64,000 nt of DNA. Origin: Oscillospiraceae bacterium. Its GTDB lineage: Bacteria; Bacillota; Clostridia; Oscillospirales; Oscillospiraceae. The notes beneath the pieces were generated by a model. It made no database searches and was not told where the DNA came from. It saw only the letters and a program-made list of their open reading frames with translations. Position numbers and translations under genes: made by a program. The stretch covers positions 1 to 64,000 of the forward strand of contig JAISHS010000022.1 of assembly GCA_031262405.1 (NCBI GenBank), in the 5' to 3' direction. Of the stretch, positions 13,888 to 59,045 are shown piece by piece (the stretch's first letter is position 1; each line of letters begins with the position of its first letter).

Positions 13888-14124
13888 ATGGTAAAGATCA
13901 GACTTCGCAGGATGGGCGCAAAGAAAAATCCCTATTACAGGATCGTTGTTGCGGACTCCCGCAGCCCGCGCGACGGCAGATTTATCGAGGAGATCGGCGC
14001 ATACGACCCCCTCACGAATCCCGCCACAGTGACGGTCAATTCAGAGCGCGCCAAGTATTGGCTCTCTCAGGGCGCTCAGCCGACCGAGACAGTCAGAGCT
14101 CTTCTGAAGAAGATTGACAATTAA
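13888..14124 (+). CDS. rpsP: 30S ribosomal protein S16
   Basis: [41 protein letters not shown]; start set after GGAGGTGAAACAG rather than at the ORF-track start. Confidence 0.97.
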
Positions 14125-14137
14125 CAATTGACAATTA
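14113..14137. repeat. 7-bp tandem repeat (ATTGACA/ATTAACA) spanning the rpsP stop codon
   Basis: attgacaattaacaattgacaatt. Confidence 0.8.
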
Positions 14138-19964: not shown

Positions 19965-20110
19965 AATTGAGAATTGAGAATTGAAAATTGACAATTAAAG
20001 GAGTCGCCGGTGGCGACAGAATTTTTTCGTCCCGCCCGCAGGCGTTTTATAATGTGTCGCGCTTTGCGCGACTCCACTAATTCTCAATTCTCAATTGTCA
20101 ATTGTCAATT
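19965..20110. repeat. Palindromic element: AATTGAG/AATTGAC heptamer arms around GTCGC hairpins
   Basis: Left aattgagaattgagaattgaaaattgacaatt, right aattctcaattctcaattgtcaattgtcaatt; inner ggagtcgc...gcgactcc. Confidence 0.8.
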
Positions 20111-22066
20111 CGCCATTCTCAGCGTAAACTCCGCCTTCGTACCGCCGCTGGCACTCGCACTCAGCCGAATCGTCCCGCCGTGCGCCCTAATAATCTCGCG
20201 CGTGATATAAAGCCCCAGACCCATACCGCCGGAGCCGGAGACGCCCCTGTCAAACTCGTGCCCGACGAGACTTTCGGGAATGCCCGCGCCGTCGTCGGTA
20301 ACCGAAACAGTAACAAATTCCTGCCCGGCTTCAGCCGAAATCTCGACCCGCCCCTGCTGCGTCGCCGCAATGGCGTTAGAGAGTAGATTCGACATTGCCC
20401 TTGCCAGCAGCGTCGCGTCGCCGAGCACACTCGGCAGCTTAGTCGGCAGACTGAGCGTGAGAGAGCAGCCCCGTTCGTCGGCAAGAGGTCTGAATTCGTC
20501 GGCGGATTTGCGCAGAAGGCTCGCCGGATCAAGCGCAGTCATGACCCTGTCAAACTCCTCCACGAGAGCCATATCTAGTGCCGTCTGCGCAAGCTCGGCG
20601 ACCTTCATGGTCTCCTCCTTGGCGAGGAAGAGCGACTCGCGCGACTTTGCGCTCCCAACGCCCTCCGCCTCCGGAAGGTTTCGCAGCGCGCGCTGAAGGT
20701 TCAGCGAAATGACGGTCAGCGGCGTTTTCATCTCGCGGGTGAGATTGGCAAGATACTGCGTTTTCACGAGTAGTAGGTTGTCGAGGAAGAGATTTTGCGC
20801 CGCAAGCTCCGCCGCCTGCCGCCGCGCCCGACCATAATCCAGCGCGAGCAAAACGCACTGGCTCAGCAGCAGGAACAGATTCGACACGACGCCTGCCATA
20901 TAAAGCCTGTCGCCCCAGATCAGCTTCGTGAGGACGCCCCAGACGCAGAAAAGCCCGATTGCCGCGAGATAAAGCCCCATAAATGGCTTGTCGGTTGCCT
21001 TTTTAGAGCGAATTCCGGCGATGAACAGGACAACCATCGGCAGAAAAGTCAGCGCCGCCATGATATAAACCCCGCCCTTAAGGATCACTAAAGGCGCGCA
21101 GCCCAGAATCGCCAGAGCGTAAAACCCCTTCCAGAGCTTCCCGCGCCGCCCCGGCGGAAACTTGATGCCGAAGGCCAGATGCGTGAACACAACAATGAGC
21201 GCCGTTCCCAAAGGTATGAGCGAAAGATATACCCAGAGCAGCGCGGCGTTCATCCCCTGCGGCAGCAAAAGCTGGGCAAAGCCGTTAGTCTCCAGAAAAA
21301 ACCTCACAGCCTGCACCAGACATATGAGCGCAAAGACGGCATAGATTTTCTCGCGGCGGTTACTTATAAAGAGCGCCGCGTGATAGAGCCCCATCAGGAG
21401 CACGGCGCCGATAAAGGCCGCCAAAACTATCCTGCGGGCAATTTGGTCTCGAAAGAGAACCTGCGCTCTGCCGACCAGAAGGTCATAGCGCAGACCGCTC
21501 TCCGCCCAATTAAAATTGGCCGCCTGAATTATAATCTCAGCCTCGCCCAAGCTCGTTTCAAAGGTTACAAGCTCGTTGCGCAGAGAGGAGGAAAAGCCCT
21601 CCGAATATGAGCTGACTGTCCCCGCGCGGAAAACGGTTTCGCCGTTAATGAATACCGCGCTGGCGTTCGGAATCTCCGGCACAAAGAGTGCAAGGCTGCT
21701 CTCGTCGGTCTTGAGCTTTAGGCGATAAGTCGCGCAGCCGTAAAGGGGATAGCCCTCTCGCGACCAGTCGGAGGGCACGGAGATAAGCTCAAAGTCACCA
21801 GCCTCGCCGGAGGCGAAATCCGCCGGAGTTAAAAGCTTACCGTAATAAAACTCCCAGTCCCCGCCAAGCGTGAAGAGAGTCTCGTTCATTTGCTCGCCGC
21901 GCAAATCAAGCGTGCCGTTTGAAGCGCGCCCAAGCTCCCGGTCGTATGGATACGACAAAAAGTAGAACACCGCCGCGCACAGTACGAGGATTCCGCATAA
22001 TATTACGTAAAAACCTGTCCGTTTCAAAGAAAACGCCCCGCTATCATATGTGTTGGTAAGACTCAT
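20105..22066 (-). CDS. Membrane sensor histidine kinase (7TMR-DISM-like sensor + HATPase)
   Basis: Multi-TM region, NLTREMKTPLTVI H-box, NLLSNAI, VSVTDDGAGIP, GLGLYITREIIRAHGG. Confidence 0.88.
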   Translation of the reverse strand: MSLTNTYDSGAFSLKRTGFYVILCGILVLCAAVFYFLSYPYDRELGRASNGTLDLRGEQMNETLFTLGGDWEFYYGKLLTPADFASGEAGDFELISVPSDWSREGYPLYGCATYRLKLKTDESSLALFVPEIPNASAVFINGETVFRAGTVSSYSEGFSSSLRNELVTFETSLGEAEIIIQAANFNWAESGLRYDLLVGRAQVLFRDQIARRIVLAAFIGAVLLMGLYHAALFISNRREKIYAVFALICLVQAVRFFLETNGFAQLLLPQGMNAALLWVYLSLIPLGTALIVVFTHLAFGIKFPPGRRGKLWKGFYALAILGCAPLVILKGGVYIMAALTFLPMVVLFIAGIRSKKATDKPFMGLYLAAIGLFCVWGVLTKLIWGDRLYMAGVVSNLFLLLSQCVLLALDYGRARRQAAELAAQNLFLDNLLLVKTQYLANLTREMKTPLTVISLNLQRALRNLPEAEGVGSAKSRESLFLAKEETMKVAELAQTALDMALVEEFDRVMTALDPASLLRKSADEFRPLADERGCSLTLSLPTKLPSVLGDATLLARAMSNLLSNAIAATQQGRVEISAEAGQEFVTVSVTDDGAGIPESLVGHEFDRGVSGSGGMGLGLYITREIIRAHGGTIRLSASASGGTKAEFTLRMAN

Positions 22067-28127: not shown

Positions 28128-30098
28128 CTAATTATTCTCGAATTGACTATTATACAACTCCGCGTAAAACCCGCCCTGCGCGAGCAGCTCCTCATGGGTG
28201 CCGCGCTCGACAATCTCGCCGTCGCGCAGTACCAAAATCAAATCGGCACTCTTTATTGTAGACAATCTGTGCGCGATTATGAATGAGGTGCGACCGCGCG
28301 TTAGCGCCTCCATCGCACGCTGAATCTGAATCTCCGTGCGCGTATCGACAGAGCTTGTCGCCTCGTCGAGTATCAGCAGCGGCGCATTCTCTACAATCGC
28401 GCGCGCGATTGTAAGCAGCTGCCGCTGCCCGTCAGAGAGCGAAACGCGCTCGCCGAGATCGGTGTCATAGCCCTCCGGCAGGGTGCGGATGTAGTGGTCT
28501 AGCCCGACCATCTTGCAGGCAGAGACCACCTGCTCATCGGTGACTCCCGGAATGCTATAGGCTATGTTCTCGCGGATCGTCCCGTCAAAAATCCAGGTGT
28601 CCTGCAGAACCATGCCGAACAAATTGTGCACGCACTCGCGCGTCATCCGTTTTTCGGGAATGCCGTCAATGAGTATCTCGCCGCTGCCCGGCTCATAAAA
28701 CCGCATGAGCAGATTTACAATCGTCGTCTTGCCGCTGCCCGTCGGACCCACAATGGCAACCTTCTGCCCGGGAAGCGCCTTCGCGGAAAAGTTCTTGATT
28801 ACGGGCGCACCCTGCGAGAAGCTAAAGCTCACGTCCGTAAACTCGCCCTCGCCGCGTGCATCGCGCCCCCTAACCGCGCCCTCTTCCTCGGGATGAAGCG
28901 CCTTCGCGGAAAATTTCTTGACAAGGGGCACGCCCGGCGTATAGCTAAAGCTCACGTCAACAAACTCGACCTCGCCGCGCGTCTCATGCTCACTGATAGC
29001 TCCCTCTTCCTCCGGCGAAAGCTCCTCCTGATCGAGAAACTCAAACACGCGCTCGACCGCCGCCGCGGCGGACTGGAGCGTCGTCGCCGCCTGCGCAAAC
29101 TGGTTCAGCGGCTGGGAAAACAGCCGCACATATACGATAAAGGCGACGATAACCGAAAAATCCATCCTCCCGTCAAGCGCCAAGGCGCCGCCCACAACAC
29201 AGACCGCAACAAAGCCCAGATTGCCGATAAAGCCCATGAGCGGCATCATAATTCCGCTTATGAACTGCGCCTTCCAGGCGCTCTCCAGCAGCTTCTTATT
29301 TATTTGAGTGAAGGTTTTTTCACTGCTGTCCTCCGCGTTATAGGCGCGGACGGTGTTGAGCGCGGCATAGATTTCCTCTATGTGCCCGTCAATTTTGCCG
29401 AGCTGCTTCTGTTGATTCTTAAAATACTTCTGCGACCTGCCGATAATGAGCGTCACCAAAACAAAGCCCAAAATCGTCGCACCGACGGCGACCGCGGCGA
29501 GCGTCGCGTCCGTTACGAACATCATAATGAGCGAGCCGAAGAAGAGGAAAAAGGCGCTCGTGAGCTGACCGACGCTCATATTGAGGGTCTGCGCCATGGT
29601 GTCAATGTCGTTCGTGACCCGCGAGAGAATGTCGCCGAAATTCACCTTGTCAAAATAGGCGAGGGTGAGTCGGTTAATCTTCGAGCTTATGTTCTCGCGC
29701 ATGGAATAGGACAGCTTCTGCGTGACCGTCGCCATAATAAAGCCCTGACCATAGGCGCAGAGCGCGCCGACGCCGTAGACAATAATCAGCGTAATTCCAA
29801 TCCGCGCCGTCTCCGCGAGATCAAGCTTTGCCGAAAAATCCCCCGCCGCGAGGGACATTATATAGTCCTCCACGAGCTTCGTCATCGCGCGGAGCCTGTC
29901 GGGCCCGACGATTACGCAGATTGCGCCGACCGCTGAGAGGATAAAGGCGGCTATAATAACCCTGCCATAGGGCTTGGCAAAGCCGATGAAGCGGCCGAGC
30001 GCCGCCTTAAAATTCTTGGGCTTTTCAAAGCCCCCGCGCCCGGGTCCGCCCGGCCCCGGGCCGCGTCTCATGGGAGGAGTTCTTCTGTCGTCAGGCAT
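28128..30098 (-). CDS. ABC transporter, fused permease/ATP-binding protein (exporter half B)
   Basis: GPTGSGKTT, LSDGQRQLLTIARAIVENAPLLILDEATSSVD; multi-TM N-terminal region. Confidence 0.96.
   Translation of the reverse strand: MPDDRRTPPMRRGPGPGGPGRGGFEKPKNFKAALGRFIGFAKPYGRVIIAAFILSAVGAICVIVGPDRLRAMTKLVEDYIMSLAAGDFSAKLDLAETARIGITLIIVYGVGALCAYGQGFIMATVTQKLSYSMRENISSKINRLTLAYFDKVNFGDILSRVTNDIDTMAQTLNMSVGQLTSAFFLFFGSLIMMFVTDATLAAVAVGATILGFVLVTLIIGRSQKYFKNQQKQLGKIDGHIEEIYAALNTVRAYNAEDSSEKTFTQINKKLLESAWKAQFISGIMMPLMGFIGNLGFVAVCVVGGALALDGRMDFSVIVAFIVYVRLFSQPLNQFAQAATTLQSAAAAVERVFEFLDQEELSPEEEGAISEHETRGEVEFVDVSFSYTPGVPLVKKFSAKALHPEEEGAVRGRDARGEGEFTDVSFSFSQGAPVIKNFSAKALPGQKVAIVGPTGSGKTTIVNLLMRFYEPGSGEILIDGIPEKRMTRECVHNLFGMVLQDTWIFDGTIRENIAYSIPGVTDEQVVSACKMVGLDHYIRTLPEGYDTDLGERVSLSDGQRQLLTIARAIVENAPLLILDEATSSVDTRTEIQIQRAMEALTRGRTSFIIAHRLSTIKSADLILVLRDGEIVERGTHEELLAQGGFYAELYNSQFENN
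28767..29012 (-). repeat. In-frame tandem duplication, 2 x 123 bp (41 aa), inside the ABC transporter gene
   Basis: EEEGAISEHETRGEVEFVDVSFSYTPGVPLVKKFSAKALHP followed by EEEGAVRGRDARGEGEFTDVSFSFSQGAPVIKNFSAKALPG. Confidence 0.95.
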
Positions 30099-34527: not shown

Positions 34528-34588
34528 TATTGTGTCGCCTCCGGCGACTCCATAATTGTCAATTGTCAATTCTCAATTGTCAATTGGC
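34528..34588. repeat. GTCGC hairpin + AATTGTC heptamer repeat (partial copy of the 19965-20110 element)
   Basis: tgtcgcctccggcgactccataattgtcaattgtcaattctcaattgtcaattgg. Confidence 0.75.
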
Positions 34589-34606
34589 TCTGCTCCGCAG
34601 GAGCCC

Positions 34607-38190: not shown

Positions 38191-40074
38191 ATGATTTTTG
38201 ATGCCGGGCCTTGCAGCGTCGCCGTGATCGGCGCGGGACACGCCGGAATCGAGGCCGCACTGGCGTGCGCGCGTCTGGGACTCGACACGGTCATCTTCTC
38301 CCTGAATCTGGACAGCGTCGGGAATATGCCCTGCAACCCCGCGATAGGCGGCACAGGCAAGGGTCAGCTCGTGCGCGAGCTGGACGCTCTGGGCGGCGAA
38401 ATGGCTCGCGCGGCGGACAAAGCCTGTATTCAATACAGAATGCTCAATCTCGGCAAGGGCGCGGCGGTGCACTCCCCGCGCGCTCAGGCAGACAGGCGGC
38501 ATTACCAGTCCGTCATGAAAAACACTCTCGAAAACCAAAAGAATCTGCGCGTCAAACAGGCAGAGATAACCGAAATCGGGCTTGAGCGCGGCGCCGTCGC
38601 CTTTGTCCGCACCTCCACCGGCGCAACCTACCCCTGCCGCGCGGCGATAATCTGCTCGGGCACCTATCTCGGCGGGCGCGTCGTCATGGGGGGCTTCCTG
38701 CGCGACTCGGGGCCGGACGGCCTCGCGGGGGCGTACTCCCTCGGCGGCTGCCTAAGGAAGCTCGGGCTCTCCCTGCGCCGCTTCAAAACCGGAACGCCCC
38801 CGCGCGTCAACGGCGCAAGCGTCGATTATTCTAAGATGGAAATCCAGCTTGGCGACGAGTGCGCGGAGCCCTTTTCCTTTGAAACCCCCGAAGCTCCGCC
38901 GAACCGCGCTGTGTGCTACCTCACCTATACCAACGAGCGCACCCACGAGATAATCCGCAATAATCTGCACCGCAGCCCGCTCTTCGGCGGCGTAATCGAG
39001 GGCGTCGGTCCGCGTTACTGCCCGTCCATTGAAGACAAGGTCGTGCGCTTCGCGGAAAAAAAGCGCCACCAGCTCTTCATCGAGCCGATGGGTCTCGGAA
39101 CAAATGAGCTGTATATTCAGGGCTTCTCCTCCTCCCTGCCAGAGGATGTGCAGATTGAAAGTCTGCGCACCGTCCCGGGACTCGAGAACGCCGAGATAAC
39201 AAGAGCCGCCTACGCTATCGAATACGATTGCGTCGACCCCACCCAGCTTCGCGCGACGCTGGAGGTCAAGGGCGTCCCCGGCCTCTTCGGCGCGGGACAG
39301 TTCTGCGGCTCCTCGGGCTATGAGGAGGCCGCCGTTCAGGGCTTCGTCGCCGGTGTCAACGCCGCACGGAAAATTTTAGGTCAGAGCCCCTTCATTCTCC
39401 GCCGCGACTCCGGCTATATCGGCGCGCTCATTGACGACCTCGTCACGAAGGGAACGGAGGAGCCATACCGCATGATGACCTCGCGCAGCGAATACCGCCT
39501 GCTCCACCGTCAGGACAACGCCGACGAGCGCCTCTCGCACCTCGGCTTGGAGATAGGACTCGTCTCCCCGGAGCGCCACCGCGCCGTTTTAGAAAAATAT
39601 GAGTCCATCCGCTTTGAGATCGACCGGCTCGAAAAAACCTTCGTCCCGCCGACGGCGCAGCTGAATTCCTTCCTCGCCGACCACGATACCGCCCCGGTGG
39701 AGACCGGCGTGAGTCTCGCGTCTCTCCTGCGCCGCCCCCAGCTCGACTACGCCGCGATTGCCCCATTCGACCCCGAGCGTGATGAGTCGTTGCCACGCGC
39801 CGTAACTCAGGGCGCGCAGATCTCGCTTAAATACGCCGGCTACATCGAACGCCAGCTGCGTCAGGTGAAGGAATTTGAAAAGCTCGAGAGCCGCCGCCTC
39901 CCGGAAAACATCGACTATGAAAAAATAAACGGCCTGCGCCTCGAGGCAAGGGCGAAGCTGCAAAAAATAAGACCGGAAAACTTCGGCCAAGCCTCCCGCA
40001 TCTCCGGCGTCTCCCCGGCAGACGTCGCAGCTCTGATGGTATACGTTGAATCGCGCAGCGATTCAACGAATTGA
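38191..40074 (+). CDS. mnmG: tRNA uridine-5-carboxymethylaminomethyl modification enzyme MnmG/GidA
   Basis: GAGHAGIEAALACARLG, NPAIGGTGKGQLVRE, full-length family match. Confidence 0.98.
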   Translation: MIFDAGPCSVAVIGAGHAGIEAALACARLGLDTVIFSLNLDSVGNMPCNPAIGGTGKGQLVRELDALGGEMARAADKACIQYRMLNLGKGAAVHSPRAQADRRHYQSVMKNTLENQKNLRVKQAEITEIGLERGAVAFVRTSTGATYPCRAAIICSGTYLGGRVVMGGFLRDSGPDGLAGAYSLGGCLRKLGLSLRRFKTGTPPRVNGASVDYSKMEIQLGDECAEPFSFETPEAPPNRAVCYLTYTNERTHEIIRNNLHRSPLFGGVIEGVGPRYCPSIEDKVVRFAEKKRHQLFIEPMGLGTNELYIQGFSSSLPEDVQIESLRTVPGLENAEITRAAYAIEYDCVDPTQLRATLEVKGVPGLFGAGQFCGSSGYEEAAVQGFVAGVNAARKILGQSPFILRRDSGYIGALIDDLVTKGTEEPYRMMTSRSEYRLLHRQDNADERLSHLGLEIGLVSPERHRAVLEKYESIRFEIDRLEKTFVPPTAQLNSFLADHDTAPVETGVSLASLLRRPQLDYAAIAPFDPERDESLPRAVTQGAQISLKYAGYIERQLRQVKEFEKLESRRLPENIDYEKINGLRLEARAKLQKIRPENFGQASRISGVSPADVAALMVYVESRSDSTN

Positions 40075-40096: not shown

Positions 40097-40168
40097 AGCC
40101 GCCGCAGCGGTCTGCGATAACAAAGCGCGAGGAACGCGCGACTTATCAAAATTGCGTAGCAATTTTTT
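40097..40168 (+). repeat. Structured intergenic repeat, family 1, copy A
   Basis: 54-bp stretch identical to 56599-56652, then hairpin AAAATTGC-GTA-GCAATTTT. Confidence 0.95.
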
Positions 40169-40192: not shown

Positions 40193-41275
40193 ATGCTCGA
40201 ACCAAAGCAAAAAGTCGTCCTCGGTCTCTCCGGTGGGGTGGACTCCGCCGTCGCGGCGCGACTGCTTCAAGAACGCGGCTTTGAGGTCTTCGCCCTGCAC
40301 CTAATCACCACCCAAACACCCTCTACACCCCCCGAAAACGCCTCTCCCCCCATCCCCGCCGCTACCCCCAAAATCGCCTCCGCACCCCCCTCGAGCGCCG
40401 TCGAAGACGCTCGGAAAACGGCTCAGGCACTCGGAATTCCCTTCGCCGCCATCAACATTTCGAGAGAGCTCGAGGAGCAGGTCTGCGCTCCCTTCGTAGC
40501 TTCCTACCTGCGCGGCGAGACCCCAAATCCCTGCATTTTTTGCAACCCAAAAGTGAAATTTAAGACATTAATCGACTATGCGGATAATATCGGAGCATAT
40601 TATGTCGCGACAGGACATTATGCCCGCGCAATCGACGGCGGCCTATATAAGGCAAAATCCCTAAAGGATCAGAGCTATATGCTAAACCGCCTGACCCCGG
40701 ACCAGGTCGCCCGCGCCATTTTCCCCCTCGGAGACCTCGAAAAAACCCAGGTTCGCGCCCTCGCCGAAAACTGGAATTTACCCCCGGCAAACAAGCCCGA
40801 CAGCATGGAAATCTGCTTCATTCCCGACGGCGATTTCGGCGCCTATATCGAGCGTCGCGGGGTGTATTTTCCGCCCGGAAACGTCGTCTCAAAAACAGGC
40901 GAAACCCTAGGAAAACACAGGGGAGTGCATCGCTACACAATCGGTCAGCGCAGGGGTCTGGGCATAGCCGCGGGGGGCCGCCTTTTCGTCTGCGAAATCC
41001 GCCCCGGCACGAACGAAGTCGTCCTCTCAGACGGGGCCGATCTGCTCACAAATGAGGCCCTCGCGCGCGATGTAAACTGGCTCGTACCCTGCTGCGAACC
41101 CTTCGAAGCCGACGTCAAAATCCGCCACTCCAAAACGCAGACCCCCGCCCTAGTCACACCCACCCCCGAAGGCGCGAAAATAGCCTTTAAAACCCCCGTC
41201 CGCGCCCCCACCCGCGGCCAAAGCGCCGTGTTTTATGTAGCTTCTCGCCTCATCGGCGGCGGCTTTATAGACTAA
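40193..41275 (+). CDS. mnmA: tRNA-specific 2-thiouridylase MnmA with Pro-rich insert
   Basis: GLSGGVDSAVAARLL, TPNPCIFCNPKVKFKTL, VATGHYA, SMEICFIPDGDF. Confidence 0.95.
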   Translation: MLEPKQKVVLGLSGGVDSAVAARLLQERGFEVFALHLITTQTPSTPPENASPPIPAATPKIASAPPSSAVEDARKTAQALGIPFAAINISRELEEQVCAPFVASYLRGETPNPCIFCNPKVKFKTLIDYADNIGAYYVATGHYARAIDGGLYKAKSLKDQSYMLNRLTPDQVARAIFPLGDLEKTQVRALAENWNLPPANKPDSMEICFIPDGDFGAYIERRGVYFPPGNVVSKTGETLGKHRGVHRYTIGQRRGLGIAAGGRLFVCEIRPGTNEVVLSDGADLLTNEALARDVNWLVPCCEPFEADVKIRHSKTQTPALVTPTPEGAKIAFKTPVRAPTRGQSAVFYVASRLIGGGFID

Positions 41276-55073: not shown

Positions 55074-55427
55074 ATGGCACGTAACAATTTTCGCGGTGGG
55101 GCGATGCCCGGCGGCGGTATGAACATGAACATGATGAAGCAGGCGCAGAAGATGCAGCAGGAGATGCTAAAGATGCAGGAGCAGATGGAACTGGCGGCGT
55201 TTACCGCAAGCTCCGGCGGCGGCGTTGTCGAGGCGACTGTGAGCGGAAAGCGCGAGCTTACAAAGCTCGTGATAGACCCGGACGCGGTCGATCCTGAGGA
55301 CGTCGAGATGCTCCAAGACCTGGTGATAGCCGCCGTGAACGAGGCTCTTCGCCGCGCGGAAAACGCCGCCAACGAGGGCATGGCGAAATTTACCGGGGGA
55401 CTGAATCTGGGGTCGCTGGGACTGTGA
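55074..55427 (+). CDS. YbaB/EbfC nucleoid-associated protein
   Basis: MKQAQKMQQEMLKMQEQME...GVVEATVSGKRELTKLVIDPDAV; downstream of dnaX. Confidence 0.95.
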   Translation: MARNNFRGGAMPGGGMNMNMMKQAQKMQQEMLKMQEQMELAAFTASSGGGVVEATVSGKRELTKLVIDPDAVDPEDVEMLQDLVIAAVNEALRRAENAANEGMAKFTGGLNLGSLGL

Positions 55428-56581
55428 CGCCGCTAATAGTAATCATTTATCTCGCGTTTATCGGTCTCGGCCTGCCGGATTCGCTGCTGGGCAGCGCCTG
55501 GCCTGTCATGCACATAGATCTCGGCGCGGCCGACTCGAGCGCGGGGATAGCATCACTTCTCATAACACTCTGCACGATTGTCTCCAGCCTGTTCAGCGGG
55601 CGGGTTATCGCGAAGTTCGGCACTGGGAGGCTTGCCGCCGTAAGCACGCTTGTTACGGCACTTTCGCTCTTTGGGATGTCGTTTTCAAATTCGCTGTGGC
55701 TGACCTGCGCGCTGGCAATTCCCTTCGGGCTGGGCGCGGGCAGCGTAGACGCCGGACTCAACGGCTATGTCGCCGAAAACCTTGAGGTGCGGCATATGAA
55801 CTGGCTCCACTCGTTTTGGGGTCTGGGCGCGGCGGTGGGACCGGTTATTCTCTCGCTCTGGATAGCTGTCGGTTCTTGGCGCGGCGGTTACAGGACAGTC
55901 GGCGGCCTTCAGCTCATGCTGGCGCTGGTGCTGCTGTTTTCGCTGCCGCTCTGGAAGCGCTCCGGCGGGGAGAAGGCGCAGCAGGAGTCCGTCCGCCACG
56001 CGACGCCGTTTCGGAAGCTTTTTCGGCTGCCGGGGGCGATTGCGGCGTTTTTGTCTTTTCTTTTCTATTGCGCGCTGGAGACTACGGTCGGGCTTTGGGG
56101 CGCGACTTATCTCGTCGGGGTGCAGGGCATGAAGCCGGGCTCGGCGGCGGGGGTTGTTTCGCTGTATTACGCGGGCATTATGTTAGGGCGGCTTGCCGGG
56201 GGCTTTTTGAATGCGAAGCTCCCGCAAAAGCGGCTCATGCGAATCGGCACGGCGATAATCGTTCTCGGCGTCGCGGCGCTAATTTTGCCGCTGGGTCAGA
56301 TTGTCGCGTCGGCGGGGCTGCTGCTCATCGGGCTGGGCTGCGCGCCTATCTATCCGGGGCTTATGCACGAGACGCCGGAAAACTTCGGCTCGGAGCATTC
56401 GCAGTCCGTCGTCGGGGCTCAGCAGGCCTGCGCCTACACAGGCTCGGCTCTCGCGCCGCTGCTCTTCGGATACATGGGCGGATCTATTGGATATGGCGTT
56501 CTCCCGTATTTCTGCGCGGTTCTACTGGCGGGAATGATAGTGTCCATGTACAGGCTACATAAGAGAGCGATTAACAATTGA
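55424..56581 (+). CDS. MFS transporter
   Basis: 12-TM-like ORF, LGAGSVDAGLNGYVAENL. Confidence 0.9.
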   Translation: MTPLIVIIYLAFIGLGLPDSLLGSAWPVMHIDLGAADSSAGIASLLITLCTIVSSLFSGRVIAKFGTGRLAAVSTLVTALSLFGMSFSNSLWLTCALAIPFGLGAGSVDAGLNGYVAENLEVRHMNWLHSFWGLGAAVGPVILSLWIAVGSWRGGYRTVGGLQLMLALVLLFSLPLWKRSGGEKAQQESVRHATPFRKLFRLPGAIAAFLSFLFYCALETTVGLWGATYLVGVQGMKPGSAAGVVSLYYAGIMLGRLAGGFLNAKLPQKRLMRIGTAIIVLGVAALILPLGQIVASAGLLLIGLGCAPIYPGLMHETPENFGSEHSQSVVGAQQACAYTGSALAPLLFGYMGGSIGYGVLPYFCAVLLAGMIVSMYRLHKRAINN

Positions 56582-56598: not shown

Positions 56599-56668
56599 AG
56601 CCGCCGCAGCGGTCTGCGATAACAAAGCGCGAGGAACGCGCGACTTATCAAATCGCGTAGCGATTTTT
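56599..56668 (+). repeat. Structured intergenic repeat, family 1, copy B
   Basis: 54 bp identical to 40097-40150, then hairpin AAATCGC-GTA-GCGATTT. Confidence 0.95.
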
Positions 56669-56688: not shown

Positions 56689-56724
56689 ACGTAAAAACCG
56701 CTCCTCGGAGCGGTTTTTTACGTT
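56689..56724. terminator. Bidirectional terminator between convergent genes
   Basis: AAAAACCGCTCC-TC-GGAGCGGTTTTTT, extended by ACGT on both sides. Confidence 0.88.
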
Positions 56725-57997
56725 ACAGCACCTTATTTATCGAGTACATATCCTGCATGACGAGGTAGCCGGGGCGGAAGAGGTTGTCGATAGTCCAGTA
56801 GCTGACCCCGGCGAGATTATAGTCCGCGACGAGTCCCAAGCGCGCGCGGTAGCTGCGGGCGTCGTCAAACCAGACCTCGTGGCGCACGCTGTTTGAGTAG
56901 TAGTTGAAATACGGCGACTGGGATGCGCCGTCATACTTAATCTCCGCGCCGGTTCGGGCGGCGAGGGAGGTTGCGGCGGCGTTGGTGAGAACCTTTGCCG
57001 AGGAGCCCTGCACGAAGGGCAGCGTCCAGTCATAGCCGTAGTTTGCCATGCCCATAAGAATCTTGCGCGGAGGAATCGCCGTCACGGCGTAGTCGAGCAC
57101 CTGAGTCACGGGTCCGATGGGCGAAACCGCCATAGCCGGACCCTTGAGATAGCCCCACTCATAGGTCATGATGTTCACCAGATCGCAGACCTCGCCGTGC
57201 ACCGGGTAGTCGTGTGCCTCATAGAGCGTGCCCACCTGATCTCCCGAAATTTTCGGCGCGACGGCGGAGACCAGCAGGAAGCCGCGCGCGTGTAAGGCTT
57301 CCGAAAGGCGGCGCAGGAGCCCGTTATAGCTCTCGCGGTCGAAGGGATAGACATACTCAAAGTCGATTATCAGCCCGTAATAGCTGCGCGAGGTCAGAGT
57401 GTTCAAAACGTTTTGCACAAAGGCGTCCTGAGCAGTCCCGTCGGTCAAAACCGCGTGTGCGATATCGCTTGAAAAGCCCCCTCCGGGTTTTGTGTTCGTG
57501 ACTGACATCAGCGAGGCGACGCGCTCCGAGGCGGCGGCCGCGATGAGCGTCGCGTCATTTAGGGGAAGCAGCTGCCCGGCGGCGTCCACCTCATAGGAGA
57601 AGGGGCTTACATAGGTGAGATAGGGGAAGGTCTCGCCGATTCTGCCCATGTTCAGACTCGTGGTGTAGCCGTTTACGTCTATGCCGCGCGTGGGCGTGCC
57701 GGAGCGGGGGATTACTACGCGCTGACCGGGATAGAGCATATTGGCGTTCGTTATCGACGGATTTGCCGCGAGAATTGCGCTGACCGAGACGCCGTAGCGC
57801 CGCGCGATTGAATAGAGCGATTCGCCGCGCGCGACGATGTGGTTGACGTCACTGGTTTGTATGACGAGCGCCTGACCCACGCTGAGCGTATAGGGCGCGT
57901 CGATCTGGTTGTCAAAGGCAAGCGCGTCCACGCTCGTGCCGTAGCGGCGGGAGATTCCCCAGAGCGTGTCGCCTCTTTTTACGGTGTAAATTGTCAT
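56723..57997 (-). CDS. LysM + GH18-like spore germination / cortex-lytic type protein (YaaH/SleL-like)
   Basis: Two LysM motifs (YTVKRGDTLWGISRRYGTSV, HIVARGESLYSIARRYGVSV) + GLIIDFEYVYPFDRESY. Confidence 0.93.
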   Translation of the reverse strand: MTIYTVKRGDTLWGISRRYGTSVDALAFDNQIDAPYTLSVGQALVIQTSDVNHIVARGESLYSIARRYGVSVSAILAANPSITNANMLYPGQRVVIPRSGTPTRGIDVNGYTTSLNMGRIGETFPYLTYVSPFSYEVDAAGQLLPLNDATLIAAAASERVASLMSVTNTKPGGGFSSDIAHAVLTDGTAQDAFVQNVLNTLTSRSYYGLIIDFEYVYPFDRESYNGLLRRLSEALHARGFLLVSAVAPKISGDQVGTLYEAHDYPVHGEVCDLVNIMTYEWGYLKGPAMAVSPIGPVTQVLDYAVTAIPPRKILMGMANYGYDWTLPFVQGSSAKVLTNAAATSLAARTGAEIKYDGASQSPYFNYYSNSVRHEVWFDDARSYRARLGLVADYNLAGVSYWTIDNLFRPGYLVMQDMYSINKVL

Positions 57998-58881: not shown

Positions 58882-59045
58882 ACAGCCCGCCACGTGCCGC
58901 TACGCGGCGACTCGCGGGCTGAGCAGTGTTTTTTTCGCCGTACACGCCGCCGAAAAAAACGATTGGAATATTGCGCTGCGCGCAAAAACGATTGGAAATT
59001 GTGTCGCCGAAAAAAACGATTGGAATATTGCGCTGCGCGCAAAAA
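58882..59045 (+). repeat. Structured intergenic repeat, family 2, copy A, with an internal tandem duplication (40-bp units at 58949-58988 and 59006-59045)
   Basis: CAGCCCGC..GCCGC-TAC-GCGGC..GCGGGCTG..TTTTTTTCGCCGTACACGCCGCCGAAAAAAACGATTGGAATATTGCGC-TGC-GCGCAAAAA. Confidence 0.9.

Follow-up and report, generated by a model that had tools for sequence, protein, structure and literature searches.

Intervening or variable insertions occur in stable RNA genes. Among repeats that lie between genes, the described systems closest to the element reported here are the REP/REPIN (BIME) sequences with their RAYT transposases (PMC3116915, PMC12306157) and the ERIC/NEMIS-type stem-loop repeats (PMC2267715). 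The former resemble it in being short, intergenic, hairpin-forming and often placed between the genes of an operon; the latter share with it an intergenic position, probable transcription and folding as RNA. ERIC/NEMIS-type repeats can alter the expression of neighbouring genes, and RNA-level effects of Yersinia ERIC are cited in PMC2267715. For candidate structured RNAs, a survey of human microbiomes provides 3161 entries (PMC8040213).

We analysed a stretch of 64,000 nt (hereafter the window) from an uncultured, gut-type Oscillospiraceae bacterium, together with the rest of its assembly and related genomes. The element found there, which we call A, is a new family of an already known kind of element. 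Its long copies enclose a class-wide RNA element, B, unnamed in Rfam, and this nesting makes the A+B composite a new variant.

Results

Two short copies of A lie on the forward strand of the window. Copy 1 (72 nt, 40097-40168) occupies the gap between mnmG (38191-40074, forward) and mnmA (40193-41275, forward), the latter having its own SD-like AAGGGAG after A. Copy 2 (70 nt, 56599-56668) follows an MFS transporter gene (55424-56581, forward) and faces a convergent LysM/GH18 gene (56723-57997, reverse), from which it is separated by a GC-rich terminator-like hairpin with a U-run, recognised in the forward-strand sequence at 56693-56719. By sequence comparison, a block of 54 nt has the same letters in both copies (40097-40150 and 56599-56652), as an earlier note on this DNA had stated, and both copies do lie on the same strand after a CDS (mnmG ends at 40074 and the MFS gene at 56581). 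When up to 3 mismatches were allowed, the 29-nt core of this block matched at exactly two places in the window, whereas 100 dinucleotide shuffles gave no match, so the pair is no chance repeat.

The window also contains AT-rich micro-repeats of the AATTGTCAATTCTCAATT type (20079-20121, 34554-34596 and 14113-14137), a 41-nt exact direct repeat (58948-58988 and 59005-59045, 57 nt apart), two adjacent 123-nt repeats that are 77% identical (28772-29017) and an ordinary bacterial large SRP RNA (RF01854; 53097-53362).

In copy 1, the predicted fold consists of three hairpins on the forward strand. The 5' hairpin (40098-40111), GCCGC-CGCA-GCGGU, is invariant; as read from the sequence, the alternative CGCAG-CGGU-CUGCG is possible. 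The central arm (40116-40147) is a GATAA/TTATC stem around GCGCG-AGGAA-CGCGC (40125-40139), and the 3' hairpin (40148-40166), AAAATTGC-GTA-GCAATTTT, is weak (-4.4 kcal/mol) with pairs that covary between copies. Its counterpart in copy 2 is AAATCGC-GTA-GCGATTT (56650-56666), a U:A to C:G double change that bears out the compensatory change already noticed between the two copies.

In the assembly to which the window belongs (1.44 Mb, 78% complete), we recovered 11 copies of A, nine short (70-75 nt) and two long (~183 nt), so the family is not limited to the pair in the window. The short copies are 83-100% identical in pairwise comparison (mean 92%) and the two long ones are 85% identical to each other. 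A starts with AGCCGCCGC and ends with AATTTTTT; the 5' third is nearly invariant, and a variable CGT/CTT/CCT/CAT/AGA followed by AGCC precedes the first hairpin. In the alignment of the nine short copies, 95.8% of helix cells were paired, against 24-45% in slid controls, and 8 cells showed double changes, above all 500 shuffles. These double changes fall in the 3' hairpin, which exists in TGC/GCA, CGC/GCG and CAC/GUG versions with GTA or GAA loops, and in the GATAA/TTATC stem, where copy C25 has a G:C to A:U double change; two 3'-hairpin variants found elsewhere in the genome (CAC/GUG; loop GAA) contribute a second covarying pair. The middle stem has two adjacent G-A/A-G mismatches (GCGAG/CGAGC) in about half of the copies and is therefore not kept by Watson-Crick covariation. 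This middle stem is GCGCG/CGCGC in its fully paired version. Folding of A as RNA shows no unusual stability (z = -1.2 to -1.6 in the two copies of the window). The 3'-hairpin versions are joined in several combinations with two versions of the central stem, a mosaic that suggests exchange between copies.

A had no family match in Rfam at gathering or relaxed thresholds and was not found in phage and viral collections. It has no terminal inverted repeats, AGCCGCCGC and AATTTTTT not being inverted copies of each other, and no inverted pairs occur among the 11 copies. We detected no target duplication (longest flank repeats of 5.0 nt versus 4.9 in cross-paired flanks) and no larger or autonomous element sharing the ends of A, whose 5' end occurs in the 11 copies only.

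All 11 copies are intergenic, with neighbours named by NCBIfam/Pfam. Eight lie between co-directional genes: short copies in mnmG-mnmA, between a phage terminase and an unnamed gene in a prophage, between a spoVD-like PBP gene and murE, in secA-pgeF, in argC-argJ and between htrA and a flgF-like gene (here with a terminator-like hairpin after A), and long copies in yqfD-phoH and between a radical SAM/DUF512 gene and der. Of the remaining three, one follows a CIRCE-like inverted repeat in the hrcA leader, one occupies the divergent gap between argH and an M23 peptidase gene, and one, at 56599, precedes the convergent LysM/GH18 gene. The earlier note was right about a repeat family with a same-strand bias and a compensated hairpin; its idea of a 3'-UTR element or a repeat targeted to gene ends suits the copy at 56599 but is too narrow for the family as a whole.

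Between same-strand genes A is in sense orientation in 8 of 8 cases (two-sided sign test, 0.008), a statistic that rests on search hits and local stretches of the assembly; divergent and convergent gaps carry no information on orientation. The count becomes 9/9 with the hrcA-leader copy, which, being located after CIRCE, lies inside the hrcA transcript. The orientation check that the earlier note had called for gave a sense bias. The antisense strand of A carries a GC-rich hairpin followed by TTTGTTAT. Through it, insertions in the reverse direction might be mildly terminating, which would account for the bias; we offer this only tentatively, since the stem is weakened in half of the copies.

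A is a recent gain. It had no blastn match in 60 relatives, among them all 11 other genomes of the same genus, and its covariance model gave a single hit, weak and isolated (24 bits, E 0.007), in 150 other genomes of the family. The gaps that hold A here measure 118 nt (mnmG-mnmA) and ~290 nt (yqfD-phoH). In the same-genus species read, the gap between mnmG and mnmA measures ~10-90 nt, has an SD and lacks A (seven close homologues), and yqfD overlaps phoH or almost touches it (six homologues), again without A. The close or near-overlapping arrangement of both gene pairs in congeners that lack A points to a recent insertion. These congeners are distant (MnmA 55-65% identical at the loci compared), so the empty sites give no exact junction and regional expansion is possible besides insertion. 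With near-identical dispersed non-coding copies that are absent at the orthologous sites of these distant species, A has the hallmarks of a short interspersed element.

Both long copies (L026, C27:3287-3477, and L027, C17:40036-40222) carry an insert at the same place (...AAAGGTCTCC ... CGACGAGG(C)...GAGGAACG). This insert is B, a structured RNA element of ~110 nt that also stands alone in the same assembly, for example twice in a tRNA array. A covariance model built from nine copies found 12 copies of B in this assembly. It also detected B in 141 of 201 family genomes, which represent 88 of 106 genera (maximum per genome at least 19), and in 42 of 291 genomes taken from the class. Named records with B include Oscillospiraceae, Flavonifractor, Pseudoflavonifractor and other Firmicutes, and partial matches occur in one Subdoligranulum plasmid and one phage record. 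Across 111 distinct rows, 95.1% of cells were paired, compared with 74% in shuffles and 33-48% in slid controls, the latter being the fairer control since the alignment was fitted to the model; double changes affect 27 of 29 pairs (636 double-change cells versus 161 in shuffles). Rfam searches at gathering and relaxed thresholds gave no family for B and matched only neighbouring known RNAs, and no named match turned up in the literature searched.

B is often associated with stable RNAs. In four congeners and several other genera (L067, L066, L069, L071, L075, L083 and L096), arm P12 of class A RNase P RNA contains it, the remaining congeners having short or different P12 arms. Elsewhere its 3' end is -1 to +2 nt from the 5' end of tRNA-Phe, -Cys, -Lys, -Glu and -Arg, of tmRNA (two genomes) and of 5S rRNA (L029:1493-1603 and 1891-2000, L111, L148, L154, L132, L076 and L080); in the tRNA array of the window's own assembly, two copies directly precede tRNA-Phe and tRNA-Cys. 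The junction is not flush at one tmRNA, which is 84 nt away, and at one tRNA-Ala, which is 141 nt away. Antisense copies are flush with the CCA end of tRNA-Gly, tRNA-Pro (two) and tRNA-Leu (L114, L128, L168 and L158). In L158, and less clearly in L128 and L168, the reverse strand of B resembles an intrinsic terminator right after CCA, which offers an ordinary explanation for the antisense placement in L158. The same four antisense loci, flush with a tRNA 3' end, make it less likely that B acts only in sense, as a processing element or ribozyme, on the 5' ends of stable RNAs.

Placement of the 3' end of B at a hairpin base holds for stable RNAs only. It was rejected as a general rule (helix at ≤4 nt in 61 of 93 loci versus 56-67 of ~90 control windows), and no junction rule was found outside stable RNAs. 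The ORF-based context of B is uninformative, because its reverse strand is often open. In L103, L127, L095 and L152, B units, tandem or single, are bordered on their far side by a duplicate of a gene tail that includes the stop codon, and in L098, L099, L120, L122 and L137 B forms head-to-head pairs whose first hairpin is common or abutting.

Discussion

In our view, A is probably a short interspersed element, non-autonomous and lineage-specific, that serves as a transcribed spacer made of hairpins. It would spread in trans into non-coding gaps, mostly between co-transcribed genes, and selection would then retain it in sense orientation. Transcribed within the operon mRNA, it would fold as three consecutive hairpins and separate genes formerly close or almost overlapping. 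Its effect would most likely be exerted at the RNA level, as a spacer or a processing/stability element that might uncouple the translation of neighbouring genes and protect or expose mRNA ends. Since neither a transposase nor a target duplication, a terminal inverted repeat or an autonomous relative was found, mobility is deduced from the distribution of the copies only. The long copies would be composites in which B, otherwise independent and class-wide, sits in the central arm of A; the same internal junctions at two loci indicate that A and B moved or were inherited together.

A regulatory origin, with A as a cis-regulatory terminator/attenuator or 3'-UTR stability element copied to chosen genes (a regulon), seems unlikely. 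It would agree with the always non-coding and probably transcribed positions, with the final hairpin and U-run and, as a 3'-UTR element, with the copy at 56599. However, the 3' hairpin is weak (-4.4 to -5.3 kcal/mol) and A/U-rich, unlike the stable GC-rich stem with sense U-tract of an intrinsic terminator, and a terminator scan gave no forward-strand terminator at A. Moreover, the host genes belong to no common pathway (tRNA modification, wall, arginine, secretion, sporulation, prophage and heat shock) and copies lie between genes that are normally co-expressed. We also doubt that A is a single-strand-DNA mobile element, of REP/REPIN type or IS200/IS605-derived, moved by a Y1 (HUH) transposase. 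Subterminal hairpins, the lack of terminal inverted repeats and target duplication and the intergenic placement would suit such an element, but the 5' end of A is limited to the 11 copies and thus shared with no larger element. The search for a RAYT-like Y1 transposase proposed in the earlier note found no PF01797 match in the own genome, a weak argument given its 78% completeness, nor in 8 of the 11 other congeners searched, the domain being present in 3 of the 12 genus genomes.

That A arose by deletion from a larger structured RNA element containing B, with its family representing B in decay, appears very improbable. B does lie in the middle of both long copies, which diverge more (85%) than the short ones (mean 92%), and the GAGGAACG..GCGAC of A resembles the AGAGGA..CGACGA of B. 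Nevertheless, the long copies hold B and A's own GAGGAACG..GCGAC side by side, and other copies of B lack the 5' and 3' arms of A. Within the A family itself, the long copies may be ancestral and the short ones deletions.

As for B, the best reading is a wider, unnamed mobile RNA domain, its mobility being deduced from the dispersed, multi-copy distribution. The flush junction of its 3' end with the mature ends of stable RNAs has a bolder reading, namely that B, and the A+B composite along with it, propagates at the RNA level as a bacterial SINE-like element, with a reverse transcriptase that might be primed on, or switch template at, tRNA, tmRNA and 5S rRNA ends; we regard this as a long shot. 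B may be a mobile element, a processing signal or both, and these possibilities can be tested.

A is a structured element that has recently entered gaps within essential operons of a poorly studied gut lineage, and it offers natural with/without pairs for testing operon coupling. B is the more important of the two, as a strongly covarying, high-copy, Clostridia-wide RNA that has no Rfam family despite its place inside RNase P RNA and against tRNA, tmRNA and 5S rRNA ends, and it may confuse the annotation of stable RNA genes in many genomes.

Compared with REP/REPIN sequences, which are GTAG-flanked imperfect palindromes of 20-40 nt often arranged in inverted pairs, A is a 72-nt unit of another design, with three unlike hairpins, ~11 copies, a same-strand bias and no RAYT found. 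MITE, ERIC and NEMIS elements are recognised by terminal inverted repeats and target site duplications, neither of which was found for A, and ERIC folds as one long stem. B is similar to the candidates of PMC8040213 in being an unnamed covarying RNA, a likeness of kind and not an entry-by-entry comparison, but differs from them in its additional occurrence within RNase P RNA and directly at tRNA ends. Finally, B recalls the insertions of stable RNA genes by its location in the variable arm P12 of RNase P RNA, whereas members of its family also occur scattered between tRNA and protein genes and, as a nested part, within A.
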